Shown one piece after another: positions 94-32,083 of a stretch of 38,973 bases of DNA; position 1 is the first letter of the stretch, and each line of letters starts with the position of its first letter. The stretch comes from Acidobacteriaceae bacterium (GTDB taxonomy: Bacteria; Acidobacteriota; Terriglobia; Terriglobales; Acidobacteriaceae). The notes beneath the pieces were generated by a model. The model did no database searches. It was not told where the DNA came from and saw only the letters and a list, made by a program, of their open reading frames with translations. Location: positions 14,392 to 53,364 of the forward strand of contig PMWW01000132.1 of the NCBI GenBank assembly GCA_003165795.1, in the 5' to 3' direction. The position numbers were made by a program, and so were the translations under genes.

Positions 94-142
94 GCTGAAG
101 TCCCGGAATATTTACGATAGCTTAGACGCCAACCGGAAGGCC
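94..142. repeat. Direct repeat copy 1, left of the glycosyltransferase-like gene
   Basis: This stretch is a close but imperfect match to 1018-1065. Both begin GCTGAAGT, both contain TATTTACG followed by AGCT and AGACGC, and both end GAAGGCC. By eye about three quarters of the bases agree. The similarity may extend some 20 bases further left. The two copies bracket the gene at 192-989 in the same orientation. It is probably an interspersed intergenic repeat of the host. Confidence 0.55.
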
Positions 143-191
143 GGCTTTACCCCGTCGTCCTAAACTTGTTTAGAGGACATAAATACCGGTC

Positions 192-25680: not shown

Positions 25681-27252
25681 CTAGCGCAAGTCCCGCGCGC
25701 CCACCGCGGCGCGCAGTTGCTCCAGCGAACTCATGTACTCTGCCAGGGCCTGGCGGTAGCTCAGTTCCGTGGCGCGATAGCTGCGCTCGGCATCGAGGAA
25801 GTCCAGCAGGGAAGCGGCGCCGTGCTGATAAGAGAATTGCGTGATGTCCAGCGCCTGTTGCGCCTGTTGTAGATAGCCGTTGTCATAGAGCTGGACAATT
25901 TCCTGGTTGTTGAGCAGCGTCTCATAGGCATTCTTCACGTCGGTCAAGACCTGCTGTTCGGCGGCCTTTTCCTGAAACTGCGATTGGGTGAGGGCATAGT
26001 AAGTGCGCGCCACCTCGCCCTGATTGCGATTGAAGATGGGCAGCGGAATGGTGACGAAGAACGCTCCCAGGTTGGACGCGTTTACGTGAGTGTAGTCGAA
26101 GGTAGCGTTGAGGTCTTGCTTGGAGTTGGCTTTCGCCAGGCCGATCTGACTGTTGGCGGCGGTGATGCCGCGCTGCGCGGCCTGCAGATCGGGCCGCAGG
26201 CTGCGCGCCCGCGCTTCCAGGTCGTACGCCGGCAAGGTCATGGGTTCGTACCCCAGAGTTCCGGCGACATCGTAGTTGCGGGGAACCGAATCGAAGCCCA
26301 TCAATTCTCGCAGCGAGTTCAAGGCCTGCGCCAGCGCAATGCGGGCGCTGGTGACGTCGGTTTGGAACTGTAGGGTCTGCAGTTGGATCTTCAGCAGATC
26401 GACCTTGCTCATCGCGCCAGCCTTATTTTGTTCCTGGCTGATGCCCACCGTGTGCTGGTAGCTCTGCAGAAACTGCAGGGCAAAATCGAGATTCGACTTG
26501 GCCAGCAAGGCGGCCACAAACTGCTGCGTGGTGTTGGCGACGGTCGTACGTTCCAGGTCCAGCGTCTGTGACTCGGTTACGGCGGTGACATCCTTGGCTG
26601 CCTGCAGCCGATGCTGCCGCTTTTGTCCGCGCTCGAAAAGATACCCAAGTCCCAGGTCGAACTGCGCTGTGTTGTCGATGTAGTTGGACGAAAACAGGTC
26701 GGGAGTGAACAGCGGAAGATACTGTGCGTCCGACGAGAGCACGGGATTGGGCCGCAGATTGGCGGTGACCTCCTGCTCTTTGTTCTGCCAGATCAGCGTC
26801 CGCTGTGCCAGCAGCGCGGGATTATTTTGCTTGGCCAGCTCAATGGCTTGATCGATCGTAATGACGACCGACGGCGCTTGCGGAACTCCCGGACCTTGCC
26901 GGGATGGAACGGGCGCTGGCGTGGGCGGCGTCTGCATTTGCGCCGGCAACTGGCCGCTAATTGAAACTACCAAGAGCAGGGCAACGAATCGAAGAGCTCC
27001 GCTCCAGTTGCGTGGAGTTAGCCGCAGGCGTAAAGCGCGCAGAAAATGCCGGAATAGCTTGGCTAGAACGAGTTCAGAGTTGGCATAGACCGGGTAGAGC
27101 CAGCCTTTAGGCTGGCGCCCGAGATTGCGCCACACCACGAAGCTTGAGCAATTTGTTCTTCGGCAGTGGAGGCGGCGCTGAAGCGCCGCTCTACCCGGGC
27201 TCGCGGGACCACGCCAACTCTGAAACCGGTCTAGCCGAAGCAGGGTTCTCAT
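25681..27252 (-). CDS. czcC: CzcC-like outer-membrane efflux channel (TolC family)
   Basis: The 523-residue product is the outer-membrane factor of the CzcCBA-type metal efflux pump. After residue 120 it has the family layout: ITIDQAIELAKQNNPALL, two outer-membrane-efflux repeats with long helices, and a final LLDFLDAERSYRATELSYRQALAEY. The ATG at 27252 overlaps the czcA stop in an ATGA and has AGGAGG in the end of czcA, so it is the coupled start. Codons about 6-64 are encoded by a 176-bp palindromic element (27061-27236). Without it, MRTLL would run straight into KLFRHFLRALRLRL and the hydrophobic signal segment FVALLLVVSISG. So an in-frame insertion ahead of the signal peptide is likely. 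Confidence 0.88.
   Translation of the reverse strand: MRTLLRLDRFQSWRGPASPGRAALQRRLHCRRTNCSSFVVWRNLGRQPKGWLYPVYANSELVLAKLFRHFLRALRLRLTPRNWSGALRFVALLLVVSISGQLPAQMQTPPTPAPVPSRQGPGVPQAPSVVITIDQAIELAKQNNPALLAQRTLIWQNKEQEVTANLRPNPVLSSDAQYLPLFTPDLFSSNYIDNTAQFDLGLGYLFERGQKRQHRLQAAKDVTAVTESQTLDLERTTVANTTQQFVAALLAKSNLDFALQFLQSYQHTVGISQEQNKAGAMSKVDLLKIQLQTLQFQTDVTSARIALAQALNSLRELMGFDSVPRNYDVAGTLGYEPMTLPAYDLEARARSLRPDLQAAQRGITAANSQIGLAKANSKQDLNATFDYTHVNASNLGAFFVTIPLPIFNRNQGEVARTYYALTQSQFQEKAAEQQVLTDVKNAYETLLNNQEIVQLYDNGYLQQAQQALDITQFSYQHGAASLLDFLDAERSYRATELSYRQALAEYMSSLEQLRAAVGARDLR
27061..27236. repeat. 176-bp element with 24-bp inverted ends inside czcC
   Basis: Positions 27061-27084 and the reverse complement of 27213-27236 agree at 21 of 24 bases, sharing GGCTAGA and TTCAGAGTTGGC. 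Inside is a second inverted pair, CGGGTAGAG (27091-27099) and CTCTACCCG (27189-27197), plus the palindromes AGCCTTTAGGCT and GGCGCTGAAGCGCC. It encodes no protein of its own and has no transposase, so it is MITE-like or a palindromic repeat. It lies wholly within the 5' part of the czcC frame and leaves that frame open. Confidence 0.7.
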
Positions 27253-30200
27253 TCGCTGAGGCCCTCCTCTTCCTCAGGCAGGATATCCATAGGCTTGGCT
27301 ACCCAGGTGTAGAACGTCGGCAGCAAAACCAGGCTGAGCGCCAACTCGGTCAGCAGGCCGCCGACGATCACGATGGCGAAGGGCCGCTGCGAGTCGGAGC
27401 CGATGTCGTGCGACATTGCCGCCGGTACCAGCCCCAGCGACGCTACCAGCATGGTCATCATGATGGGACGGAGGCGGCGGGTGGCGCCCAGCAGCGCTGC
27501 CTCGTGAACGCTGTGTCCACGCGCCCGCAACTGGTTGATGTATTCGATCATGATGACGCCGGTCTGCACCGATACTCCGAACAGCGCCAGAAATCCTACT
27601 CCGGTGGAAACACTGAAGTGAGTTCTGGTAATCCAAAGCGCTAACAGACCGCCCAGCGGCGCCATGCTGAGGTTGAGCAGCACCAGCAGCCCCCACTTGA
27701 AGGAACGAAACATGGAATACAGAACCAGCATGATGACCAGAATGGTCAGCGGGATGACGATAGCCATGCGGTGATTAGCACGCTTCTGACTTTCGTATTC
27801 ACCGGCCCAATCCAGGGTGTAGCCCTGCGGCAGCTTGACCTGCTTGTTGACCTTGTCCATGGCTTCTTCGACGGTGCTGCCCAGGTCGCGGCCGCGCACG
27901 CTGTATTTGAGCGCGATATAGCGCTGATTGCCTTCGCGGTAGATCATGGAAGCGCCGTCATCCACGGTGATGTCGCACAACGCGCCTAGCGAGACACGCT
28001 CGCCGGAAGGCGCCAACAGACGAATATTTTTTATATCGTCGAGCGAGGAGCGGAATTGTTCCTGATAGCGCGGCACCAGATCGAAGCGCTGCTCGCCAAT
28101 CAGGATTTGACTGACCGGATTTCCGCCGATCGCGGTCTGTACCGCGTCCTGGATGTCGGAAGCGTTGATGCCGTAACGGTCAGCCTTGACGCGATCGACC
28201 TTGATGTTGACGTTGGGCTGGCCAAGCACGCGGAACAGACCGAGGTCGGCGACGCCGGGAACCGTCTTCATGACGTCCATGATCTGCTCGCCTGTCTTCT
28301 CCAGGTCTTTCAGATCGGAGCCGAAGATCTTGACCGCGAGTTCGCCTTTTACACCGCTGACCGCCTCTTCCATGTTGTCGGCGATCGGCTGCGAGAAGCC
28401 CCACTCCACGCCGGGAATTTTTTCGACTTCCTTATCCATGGCGTCGATCAGCAACTCCTTGCGGCCGCGGAACTGCGGTCGCCATTGAGCGCGAGGTTTG
28501 AGATCGACAAAATATTCGGTGTTGAAGAAGCCAGTGGCATCGGTGCCATCGTCGGAACGTCCCACCTGCGACACCACCTGAGTAACTTCCGGAAAGCTGG
28601 CAAAGATTACCCGAGCCTGGTCCATCACGCGCATGCCTTCGCTGGGACCGGTGCTGGGCGCCAACGTCCCGCGCGCCCAGATGGAGCCTTCATCAAGATG
28701 CGGCAGAAATTCCGAGCCAATTACTCCCCCCGCTGCCAGGTAGAGCGATACGCTGAGGATCACGATCAGGGCGACCAAGGCCACCATGCGCCGCGCCATA
28801 ATCCAATCCAGGGTTCGTTCATAGGAGCTGGTGATCCAGCGAACCGCAGGGTTGTCCCAGGCTTTCACGCCTTTGCGGAAGATAAGGCTGGCCAGCACCG
28901 GCGCCAACAGAATGGAAAACAGGAGCGAGCCCAGCAGTGCAAAAGCTACCGTCCAGGCCATCGGACGGAACAAACGGCCTTCGACTCGTTGCAGGGTGAA
29001 GATGGGCAGGTACGACAGGATGATGATCAGGATGGCATAGAACACGGGTCGCTGCACTTCATGTGCGGCGGCGCGAATGGTCTCGTCCATCGAGCCATGA
29101 CCGGTGCGAATTTCCAGCCGCCGCTGGATGTTCTCCACCATCACCGCCGCGCCTTCCACAATCATTCCGAAGTCGAGCGCGCCCAGCGACAGCAAGTTCG
29201 CCGGGATATGCCGCAGGTCCAGCAAGATCGAGGCGAAAAACAGCGAGAACGGAATGGTGACCGCGACGATCAGCGCCGAGCGAATGTTCCCCAGAAAGAA
29301 AAACAGCACAATCACGACCAGCAGAATTCCCTCGGTCAAGTTGTGCAGCACGGTGTGGGTGGTGAGGTGGACCAGATCGTCGCGATTGATGTGCGGCACG
29401 ATCTTCACGCCCGGCGGCAACACGTGCTGGTTGAGGAAATCTACCTTCAGGTCGATGTTATGCAGCACGGCTTCGGCTTCGGCGCCCTTGCGCATCTGCA
29501 CAATGCCTTCCACCACATCGTCGTTGTCGATAACGGTTCCGTCTGCGTGACGAATGGCTTTGCCCAGCTTGCCCAAGCGGATCTTCGGGCCCTCGGTCAC
29601 CACCGCGATGTCGCGCACCCGAATCGGCGTGCCGTTCTGTACCTTCAACACGGTGGCGCCGATGTCGTCGGTGGTTTGCATCAGACCGACGGCGCGGATG
29701 TTATAAGCCTGCTGGCCTTTCTCGATGAAACTCCCGCCGCCGTTAACATTGTTGGCGGTCAGCGCCTGCTCCACCTGCGCCATTGCAATGCCGTACGCCA
29801 CCAGCTTGTCGGGATCGACTTGTACCTGATATTCGCGAGTCTCGCCGCCAAAAATCGATACCGCCGCGACATCGGGCACCGACATCAGGTGCTTAAAGAC
29901 GACCCAGTCCTGCAGCGCCTTCAGGTCCATGATGTCGTATTTGGGATTTGTGCTTTGCAGCGTGTAGAAGTAAATTTGGCCGGTGGGACTGAAGTCGGGT
30001 CCGATCTGCGGATTCAGTCCGGGCGGCAGATTCACCAGCGTTAGCTTCTCCAGCACTTGCTGGCGATTCTGCAGATTGTCGGATTCGTCGTCGAAGATGG
30101 CGGTGATGAACGACAAACCCGCCAGCGACGTGGAGCGCAAATGCGTTAAGTGCCCCAGGCCGTTCATCTGCGTCTCAATCGGAATCGTGACCTGCTGCTC

Positions 30201-30383
30201 AACTTCTTCGGCGGCGCGCCCCGGCCACTGCGTAATCACCCAGACATACTTGTCGGCTACGTCGGGATAAGCTTCTACGGGAAGGTTGTGGAACGAAATG
30301 ATGCCCCAGATCGCCAGGGCCACGCCCAGCGCCAGCACCAGCATGCGGTTCTTCAGCGCGAAGTCAACCAGGAAGCGGATCAT
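27249..30383 (-). CDS. czcA: CzcA-like heavy-metal efflux RND pump
   Basis: The 1044-residue inner-membrane proton antiporter exports divalent metal ions. It has the RND layout of 12 membrane spans with two large periplasmic loops (about 33-345 and 550-870). The HME-family motif in span 4 reads LDFGMIVEGAAVMVEN, giving D404, E410 and E417. In CzcA the equivalents are D402, D408 and E415, so the second acidic residue is Glu instead of Asp. Length and motif place it in the HME branch with Zn/Co/Ni-type rather than Cu/Ag-type pumps, though the metal is not certain. It starts 6 bases after the czcB coding end and overlaps czcC by 4 bases, so B-A-C is one operon. Confidence 0.94.
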   Translation of the reverse strand: MIRFLVDFALKNRMLVLALGVALAIWGIISFHNLPVEAYPDVADKYVWVITQWPGRAAEEVEQQVTIPIETQMNGLGHLTHLRSTSLAGLSFITAIFDDESDNLQNRQQVLEKLTLVNLPPGLNPQIGPDFSPTGQIYFYTLQSTNPKYDIMDLKALQDWVVFKHLMSVPDVAAVSIFGGETREYQVQVDPDKLVAYGIAMAQVEQALTANNVNGGGSFIEKGQQAYNIRAVGLMQTTDDIGATVLKVQNGTPIRVRDIAVVTEGPKIRLGKLGKAIRHADGTVIDNDDVVEGIVQMRKGAEAEAVLHNIDLKVDFLNQHVLPPGVKIVPHINRDDLVHLTTHTVLHNLTEGILLVVIVLFFFLGNIRSALIVAVTIPFSLFFASILLDLRHIPANLLSLGALDFGMIVEGAAVMVENIQRRLEIRTGHGSMDETIRAAAHEVQRPVFYAILIIILSYLPIFTLQRVEGRLFRPMAWTVAFALLGSLLFSILLAPVLASLIFRKGVKAWDNPAVRWITSSYERTLDWIMARRMVALVALIVILSVSLYLAAGGVIGSEFLPHLDEGSIWARGTLAPSTGPSEGMRVMDQARVIFASFPEVTQVVSQVGRSDDGTDATGFFNTEYFVDLKPRAQWRPQFRGRKELLIDAMDKEVEKIPGVEWGFSQPIADNMEEAVSGVKGELAVKIFGSDLKDLEKTGEQIMDVMKTVPGVADLGLFRVLGQPNVNIKVDRVKADRYGINASDIQDAVQTAIGGNPVSQILIGEQRFDLVPRYQEQFRSSLDDIKNIRLLAPSGERVSLGALCDITVDDGASMIYREGNQRYIALKYSVRGRDLGSTVEEAMDKVNKQVKLPQGYTLDWAGEYESQKRANHRMAIVIPLTILVIMLVLYSMFRSFKWGLLVLLNLSMAPLGGLLALWITRTHFSVSTGVGFLALFGVSVQTGVIMIEYINQLRARGHSVHEAALLGATRRLRPIMMTMLVASLGLVPAAMSHDIGSDSQRPFAIVIVGGLLTELALSLVLLPTFYTWVAKPMDILPEEEEGLSE

Positions 30384-30389
30384 GCCGGG

Positions 30390-31550
30390 CTACTCCTCCG
30401 CCGCGCTGGAGAACTGTAAACCATTGCTGACGATTTGATCTCCCGCCTTCAGCCCGCTGATGACCTGCTGATATCCATCCTTCTCTTGCGGACCAAGCTG
30501 CAGGGCGACGCGGCGAAAGCGATTGTCGCCGAGAGGCACGAACACCCAATCCTTATCGTGCAAGTGAACCACTGCCGAAGCCGGCACGACTACGCGATCG
30601 ACCAGGTTATGCGCGCGGAACATAGCGCTGACGTACATGCCCGCGCGCATGATGCCGTTCGGATTGGGCAGATCGATGCGCACTTTGGCGGTGCGCGTAG
30701 TGGGATCGAGGACCTCGCCGATGTTGATGACCTTGCCGGGAAATTGATCGTGCTGATAGCCATCAATGCTGATGTCAGCGACGTCGCCCACGTGCACCCG
30801 GGACAGCATGTCCTGATAAACGTCACAAACCACCCACACCCGCGAAAGGTCGGCAATGGTGAACAGAGCAGGCTGGTTGTCGAGCGAGCGGACACCGGTT
30901 CCGCCGGTAATCTGCTGGTCCACGATGACGCCGGAGATGGGTGCGCGCAACGGCAACAGCGGTGACGGATTGTTAATGTCGGCACCCAGAACTTTCACGT
31001 GAGCGACGGCGGTCTCCAGGTCCACTTTGGCCTTGGCGTGCGCGTCCTGAGCCGTTTCCAAGTCAGCCAGCGCGATGGCGCCCTTGTCATACAGCAGCTG
31101 CGAGCGCGCCAGTTGCTTGTCGGCCAACGCTTCGTCGGCCTTGAATTTTTGATAATCCGAAAATGCGCCGGAAACATCGGGGCTTTCAATGAGCAACAGC
31201 ACCTGTCCCTTCTTCACCGTATCGCCCAGCTTGACTTTAATCTCGACGACGCGACCGCCTCCCAGCGAGACGACGGGAACTGACCGATTCACGTCAGGCG
31301 TAACCGAGCAGTTCACGTGAACTTCGTCGCTTACTTTCCGGGCCTGCGCTGCCGTCAGCGAAAACTGGCTGGGGTCCTGCATGGTGAATACGTCCGGATC
31401 GGTGTTGGTTTCCACCACCTTCGTCGCCGGCGGCTCCGCCTTGCTCCCGGAACATCCGAGGGAAACGGACGCGATCGCCAGCAACAATAAAGAGCAGCCA
31501 ATGCGTGCCCTGCGCGGTCCACGATTCTTCTCGCTGCTTTCTTTCTTCAT
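30390..31550 (-). CDS. czcB: CzcB-like periplasmic adaptor lipoprotein
   Basis: The 386-residue membrane fusion protein joins the CzcA pump to the outer-membrane channel. From the ATG at 31550 it begins with basic residues, a hydrophobic stretch and a lipobox VSLGC (about residues 28-32), so it is probably lipid-anchored. Next are a lipoyl half-motif (VVSLGGGRVVEIKVKLGDTVKKGQVLL), a helical hairpin, the second half (LRAPISGVIVDQQITGG) and a C-terminal barrel with VVHLHDKDWVFV. The frame is open to an ATG at 31685 that overlaps the upstream gene stop (ATGA). That would put 45 residues before the signal peptide, so I prefer 31550. Confidence 0.92.
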   Translation of the reverse strand: MKKESSEKNRGPRRARIGCSLLLLAIASVSLGCSGSKAEPPATKVVETNTDPDVFTMQDPSQFSLTAAQARKVSDEVHVNCSVTPDVNRSVPVVSLGGGRVVEIKVKLGDTVKKGQVLLLIESPDVSGAFSDYQKFKADEALADKQLARSQLLYDKGAIALADLETAQDAHAKAKVDLETAVAHVKVLGADINNPSPLLPLRAPISGVIVDQQITGGTGVRSLDNQPALFTIADLSRVWVVCDVYQDMLSRVHVGDVADISIDGYQHDQFPGKVINIGEVLDPTTRTAKVRIDLPNPNGIMRAGMYVSAMFRAHNLVDRVVVPASAVVHLHDKDWVFVPLGDNRFRRVALQLGPQEKDGYQQVISGLKAGDQIVSNGLQFSSAAEE

Positions 31551-31681
31551 TCCACGAACTCTCTTCTGCTGCGTGGCATTCCGCGATGGGCGAGCGAACT
31601 CGCGCCGCTGGGACGCCAGAAATGCAAGAAATAAATATTGAGAAGCTGCCTCCACTATTTCCTGGGGCAGAGCTGGGCCAG

Positions 31682-32083
31682 TCATTTGCCGAAGGCAGGA
31701 GGCGCCCGTCCGCGCGGAGAGAGGCGGTAGCCGCTTAGCGCGTGGGTCTTCGCCTCGGCCGGCTGCCAGGGTCGCAACATCGTTAGCGTGAACAGGAGAG
31801 ACAAAGCTGGCAGCATGGGCAACATCGAAGCGGTGCGAGAAAACTGCAAAGGAGAAGCAAACTGCGGAATCCGCTTGCTGGCTTCTTCCATCAGTGTCTG
31901 GGTGGGATGCAGATCGTCACTGGCGGAAATAACCGGAAACAACAGCAGCAGAACACACGCCAGCGCCAGCAGCGCTCGACGATAAGGCAGTCTCTCCCAG
32001 CTCGATTGCGGGCGGCGCCGCGGGAAAATCAGGAACGCACCCATGCCCAAGGTGAACCAGACTAGATTGAGCAGCAACTCCAT
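31682..32083 (-). CDS. Small membrane protein upstream of czcB
   Basis: The 133-residue protein has two or three membrane spans: ELLLNLVWFTLGMGAFLIF near the start, RALLALACVLLLLFPVISAS at about 36-55, and a weaker one near residues 88-105. A short segment with DDLHPTQTLMEEASKRIP follows the second span. A His/Asp-bearing loop near a metal efflux operon is suggestive of metal sensing or binding, but that is inference. I know no named family for it. Its stop overlaps the longest czcB frame by 4 bases. It is the first gene of the probable czc operon. Confidence 0.6.
   Translation of the reverse strand: MELLLNLVWFTLGMGAFLIFPRRRPQSSWERLPYRRALLALACVLLLLFPVISASDDLHPTQTLMEEASKRIPQFASPLQFSRTASMLPMLPALSLLFTLTMLRPWQPAEAKTHALSGYRLSPRGRAPPAFGK

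Follow-up and report, generated by a model that had tools for sequence, protein, structure and literature searches.

An apparently mobile REP-type palindromic element lies in frame near the start of a czcC-like efflux gene in an Acidobacteriaceae genome

The window, i.e., the whole 38,973-nucleotide stretch of DNA that was analysed, belongs to an Acidobacteriaceae draft genome of 4.95 Mb (208 contigs, 99% complete) and carries a czc operon with a palindrome just inside one of its coding regions. What is this palindrome, how did it come to lie there, and what has become of the gene? All three genes of the operon are on the minus strand. The czcB-like periplasmic adaptor gene (30390..31685; PF16576 and TIGR01730 above cut-off) is upstream of the czcA-like RND pump gene (27249..30383; TIGR00914 CusA/CzcA above cut-off), whose stop overlaps the start of the czcC-like outer-membrane efflux gene (25681..27252; PF02321 OEP) as ATGA. 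The translation of the latter has 523 aa, with residues 8-63 derived from the element, and hydropathy places its most hydrophobic stretch, the signal core, at residues 86-98. The NCBIfam scan gave no match above cut-off for this last gene, which is therefore called czcC on the strength of PF02321 and its operon.

The original prediction described a 176-bp unit in czcC with 24-bp inverted ends matching at 21 of 24 positions. The palindrome and this count were reproduced: 27061-27236 is an imperfect palindrome, and its outer arms extend to 31 nt with 81% complementarity, the left arm at 27061..27091 (plus strand) and the right arm at 27206..27236 (minus strand). Both arms were also covered by a search for the pattern TAGAMCGGNTTCAGAGTTGG, which at up to two mismatches occurs 20 times in the genome (reversed control: 0). 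The size did not hold, as the net insertion is 168 bp by the family edges and 176 is not a multiple of three. When the element was aligned with 15 other pieces from the same genome and four from sister genomes, the similarity ended at the TA of CTAG, at 27064-27065 and 27232-27233 (approximately TAGA...TCTA), and these conservation edges are the candidate left and right TA of the target site. The element thus measures 170 bp from TA to TA (27064..27233, no strand assigned; C178:41455-41624 in the assembly), and the net insertion corresponds to 56 codons. The DNA fold of 27055-27245 has an energy of -55.9 kcal/mol against -34.1 +/- 3.4 for shuffled sequences (z -6.4), while the RNA fold of the coding strand reaches -103.7 (z -7.7); in neither case was any of 200 shuffles as good. 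The palindrome is not a chance structure, since the unit recurs in the genome.

The mobile origin originally proposed could be checked through other copies, and these are present. The 176-bp query matched at least 47 pieces of its own genome at E<=1e-3, the czcC copy included (40 of 70 first-look candidates were scored), and 46 pieces were found in the sister genome G002. Two of the own-genome copies are full-length near-twins of the element, C88:2769-2942 at 97% identity and C143:11101-11274 at 95%; two more are nearly full-length at 78-79% identity, and the remaining listed pieces are partial, diverged or cut. Sixteen own pieces (counting the czcC copy) and four sister pieces share one layout, in which two outer arms enclose, in this order, REP unit A, a spacer and the inverted REP unit B. 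Unit A (27094..27117, plus strand) and unit B (27171..27194, minus strand) each consist of a short hairpin with the GTAG tag at its 5' foot, the stems of the two being different. At up to two mismatches, unit A has 25 matches in the genome and unit B 36 (the czcC copy of unit B having one mismatch), with none in the controls. When unit A is reduced to its general form and one mismatch is allowed, the count is 99, of which 67 are exact, against 0 in the reversed control. The two units are inverted and form one larger hairpin, as judged by alignment and folds, in the manner of a BIME or REPIN. Taken by its sequence and predicted folding, the element is a heterodimer of two head-to-head GTAG-tagged REP hairpins enclosed in outer arms.

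Both units are present in all nine genomes of the genus that were searched, and in the own genome REP units are also found by themselves, outside the long element. A search for the A-B pair in 120 genomes returned eight matches, all in the own genome; this search took in two of the eight sister species and allowed no mismatch or central hairpin, hence absence elsewhere is not implied. A third hairpin is found at the centre of some copies, four by a perfect-arm test (L014 1622-1827, L016 1702-1860, L021 1466-1597 and L026 1560-1766) and three more by eye (L015 1535-1677, L025 1511-1720 and L012 4985-5180). Five of the 16 aligned own pieces contain N gaps, which indicates the assembly struggles at these palindromes; at least part of the central hairpin is present in four of the five gapped pieces (L015, L016, L018 and L021). 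Separately, the window holds a weak degenerate REP unit near its left end (94-176, minus strand; profile E 2.8e-5), probably what remains of an old member of this superfamily.

The copies are numerous and lie mainly between genes, as is typical of GTAG-type REPs; for position, the surroundings of 17 own pieces of the long element were read by eye from mechanical ORF calls. Convergent long ORFs flank 11 of the 17, same-direction ORFs flank three (L016, L017 and L026) and divergent ORFs one (L012:1271), L030 being ambiguous. The czcC copy is the only confirmed in-gene copy among them. Two pieces, L013 and L017, give a TAG stop to a long ORF, and in L016 a long frame has a possible start codon within the element. 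Three of the four sister pieces look convergent-flanked.

The czcC locus was compared with 29 relative loci, the upstream side being present in 28 (L040 ends before the leader). In three of the 29 czcA lies directly upstream: L033, L034 and L035, with 81.6, 86.0 and 84.6% identity over the CzcA end, respectively (L010 and L033 seem to be one contig, given their equal length and identical junction sequence). All three sister junctions keep the ATGA start, have a short leader and are without the insert, and the element profile gave zero matches across the 29 loci (28 with upstream side). The start at ATG 27252, originally deduced from the ATGA overlap, is thus well supported, given that the same overlap is kept in three of three sister junctions. 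The comparison of czcC N-termini and czcA-czcC junctions also agrees with the earlier placement of a mobile palindrome after the true start and before the signal peptide. The sister leaders are too diverged for the exact target to be aligned. The remainder of czcC is intact, being 78% identical to the nearest sister and without stops. The genome has a second czcC-like gene (G000:C35:51359-52564), 58% identical to the first, and among the matches listed no element copy lies on contig C35.

Could relatives without the element simply share the long N-terminus, in which case the insertion would lose its basis? Two of the 29 loci, L053 and L054, which come from another family in the order, have an even longer open frame upstream than the window does, and several other loci have a long one, yet by eye the signal peptide is immediately preceded by an ATG in L041, L046, L049, L053, L054 and L055. 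A shared long leader was therefore rejected, and the insertion stands.

Within czcC the insert is read without interruption. Removal of the unit had been predicted to join MRTLL to KLFRHFL; when the 168 bp given by the family edges are removed in a script, the result is instead MRTLLRL-AKLFRHFLRALRLRL, in frame (MRTLLRLAKLFRHFLRALRLRLTPRNWSGALRFVALLLVVSISGQLPAQ). Only one of the six frames of the czcC copy is stop-free, and it is the frame in use. The same frame is open in both near-twins, so the idea that it was selected in place was rejected and the open frame is a property of the subfamily. The czcC copy differs from the near-twins at 6 and 8 of 170 positions (3.5-4.7%). Given this small distance and the absence from three sister junctions, the czcC insertion looks recent. 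Four substitutions set the czcC copy apart from both twins, and nothing shows selection on the peptide, because all four alter the encoded residue.

These results are best explained by the insertion of a non-autonomous REP heterodimer into czcC by a REP-transposase route, with the frame kept and little or no loss of function, a reading we hold with high confidence. The element would be a non-autonomous mobile repeat, made of two inverted GTAG-tagged REP hairpins enclosed by its own outer arms, and one of the genome's own REP-associated tyrosine transposases would most likely have copied it in the form of single-stranded DNA. Its target would have been a GGCTAGCC site in czcC, seven codons from the start. 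With a net gain of 168 bp and a stop-free frame among the six, the gene could stay open across the insert. CzcC would then most likely be translated from its old start, with a basic extension of 56 residues followed by a still recognisable signal peptide, and its function would be mildly reduced or unaffected.

The genome contains 13 Y1 transposase genes, 12 of which were covered by the NCBIfam scan (L073 was left out). Five of the 12 passed the REP-associated cut-off (NF047646, REP_Tyr_transpos), namely L067, L068, L070, L071 and L074; the genome thus has REP-associated Y1 (HUH) transposases, as in the REPtron/RAYT systems. Two more, L069 (62 bits) and L072 (79.6 bits), are under both cut-offs with a REP model as the best one (cut-off 80). 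Another five, L062-L066, passed the IS200/IS605 cut-off instead. The transposase at C121:10126, which is above the REP cut-off, is flanked on either side by inverted GTAGAGC...CCTTCAGG REPs, a REPtron-like arrangement; these share the signature of the element and have different stems. In the same region (L068 1474-2112), the 3' end of the transposase open frame extends across inverted REP copies, and REP sequence may form part of the C-terminus of this transposase. At the Y1 gene C130:56549, which is below the cut-off, a unit B differing at one position lies some 200 bp upstream, on this side only. No full-length element was found beside any of the 13 Y1 loci.

It may be asked whether the hairpin has been retained to set the level of czcC relative to czcBA, through mRNA protection, attenuation or slowed early translation. 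The RNA hairpin is very stable, with its stem starting near position +12 of the coding sequence, and roles of REPs and BIMEs in gene regulation are cited in PMC8266576. However, when the region was folded with and without the insert, the mean unpaired probability over -3..+12 was 0.46-0.47 with it and 0.18-0.20 without it, and that of the SD region was 0.20-0.24 against 0.24. Predicted accessibility of the start hence does not fall and the SD region hardly shifts, which does not support a hairpin hiding the czcC start. The insert is, moreover, absent at this position from the three sister junctions, and we regard a retained regulatory hairpin as unlikely.

Similarly unlikely, in our judgement, is that the extension blocks secretion and that czcC is being lost, with the C35 homologue possibly covering for it. 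The insert precedes the signal peptide, the net charge over residues 8-63 is +8, and a second homologue does exist in the genome; yet czcC has neither frameshift nor stop, and the hydrophobic core is retained. The original prediction also considered that a downstream start might be forced, which the codons do not bear out. In a survey that left CTG codons aside, no in-frame ATG, GTG or TTG was found between the insert and the hydrophobic core. ATG 1 has an SD-like sequence, whereas GTG 39 and 40, both in the element, are without one; the other start-like codons are TTG 94, within the core, and TTG 102 and ATG 106, beyond it. From the translated sequence, an extended yet still exported protein is the likeliest state of CzcC.

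A different mode of transfer was also weighed, in which a DDE transposase of the cut-and-paste kind moved the element as an IS630/Tc1-type MITE, with the REP-like hairpins merely carried inside. Transposases of this type duplicate TA and often choose CTAG. Among 39 arm ends from several genomes, TA is at the edge in 36, a count biased by a search pattern that began with TA, and lacking in three, and a pyrimidine precedes the edge TA in 34. The target-site comparison at czcC fits TA edges with a candidate TA duplication, and a duplicated TA at an ancestral GGCTAGCC site would agree with the 168-bp length. A CTAG duplication of 4 bp is disfavoured, since L015, L016 and L017 each have different bases ahead of the TA at their two ends, unless one end mutated later. 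Speaking against the MITE, the search of the own genome with PF13358, the only family searched in this draft assembly, gave a single partial DDE_3 match in a 131-aa open frame, and no arm matching the element was found in the 3.2 kb around it. Furthermore, the hairpins have GTAG tags, REP units occur separately from the long element, and several transposases of the REP-associated group are encoded in the genome. We therefore consider the MITE rather improbable and retain the REP-transposase route, although the outer arms exceed a plain REP dimer and could point to a different mobiliser. An assembly artefact that put the repeat into czcC is extremely improbable: the genome is a draft with gaps at several of these palindromes, but the operon and the reading frame continue on both sides and the czcC copy is gap-free.

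The known systems were compared by their published descriptions, and among the papers listed by the literature searches none was recognised as describing this element family. The closest in design are the GTAG-tagged REP heterodimers of Di Nocera et al. (2013; PMC3733652), which share the GTAG tag, the hairpin, the inverted pair with different stems and the structured spacer. There, heterodimers are described as lying mostly at gene 3' ends, with some lending a TAG stop, which resembles the 11 convergent positions and the two TAG stops among our 17 pieces; some REPs are inside genes, a share of these N-terminal. The czcC element differs in having an outer arm of about 24-31 nt and, in some copies, the third central hairpin, and its likeness to the 24 published families is one of overall design. 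The same paper describes degenerate GTAG-1 units joined to unrelated stem-loops across the genomes of P. putida and P. fluorescens, likewise a REP with extra structure; compared by description, the arms of the czcC element differ in enclosing a well-kept REP pair. The REPINs of Pseudomonas fluorescens (Bertels and Rainey 2011; PMC3116915) are also non-autonomous, and a doublet of inverted REPs is proposed to be what moves, whereas the czcC element is a heterodimer with outer arms and far fewer copies.

In-frame residence within genes also has precedents. Rickettsia palindromic elements (PMC10969869, PMC3733652) are, by description, similar mobile palindromic repeats of about 150 bp found in frame in protein genes; unlike them, the present family was not seen to insert repeatedly into many genes (one confirmed case in the 17 own pieces examined, L016 being a possible further one) and has no sign of a selected peptide. 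REPs inside tnpA-REP genes of subclass 2.4 (PMC6006769) leave the frame undisrupted as well, but here the host is an efflux channel gene and the insert a long heterodimer before a signal peptide. The czcC element is thus an addition to the known in-gene, in-frame REPs, already published, at an unusual site. Nor are REPs in Acidobacteriota new, since the survey table of PMC12306157 includes three such genomes. For this phylum, tyrosine transposases that have terminal inverted repeats are named in the 2013 survey (PMC3733652).

The three most alike copies keep one stop-free frame. We regard it as quite doubtful, though conceivable, that the acidobacterial REP heterodimer with outer arms acts as a ready-made coding insert of 56 residues, here an unusually long basic leader on an exported channel protein. 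In czcC, the insert represents a clean, apparently recent in-frame REP-type element inside the leader of a secreted protein, and this leader would offer a natural test of the distance tolerated between a signal peptide and the N-terminus.
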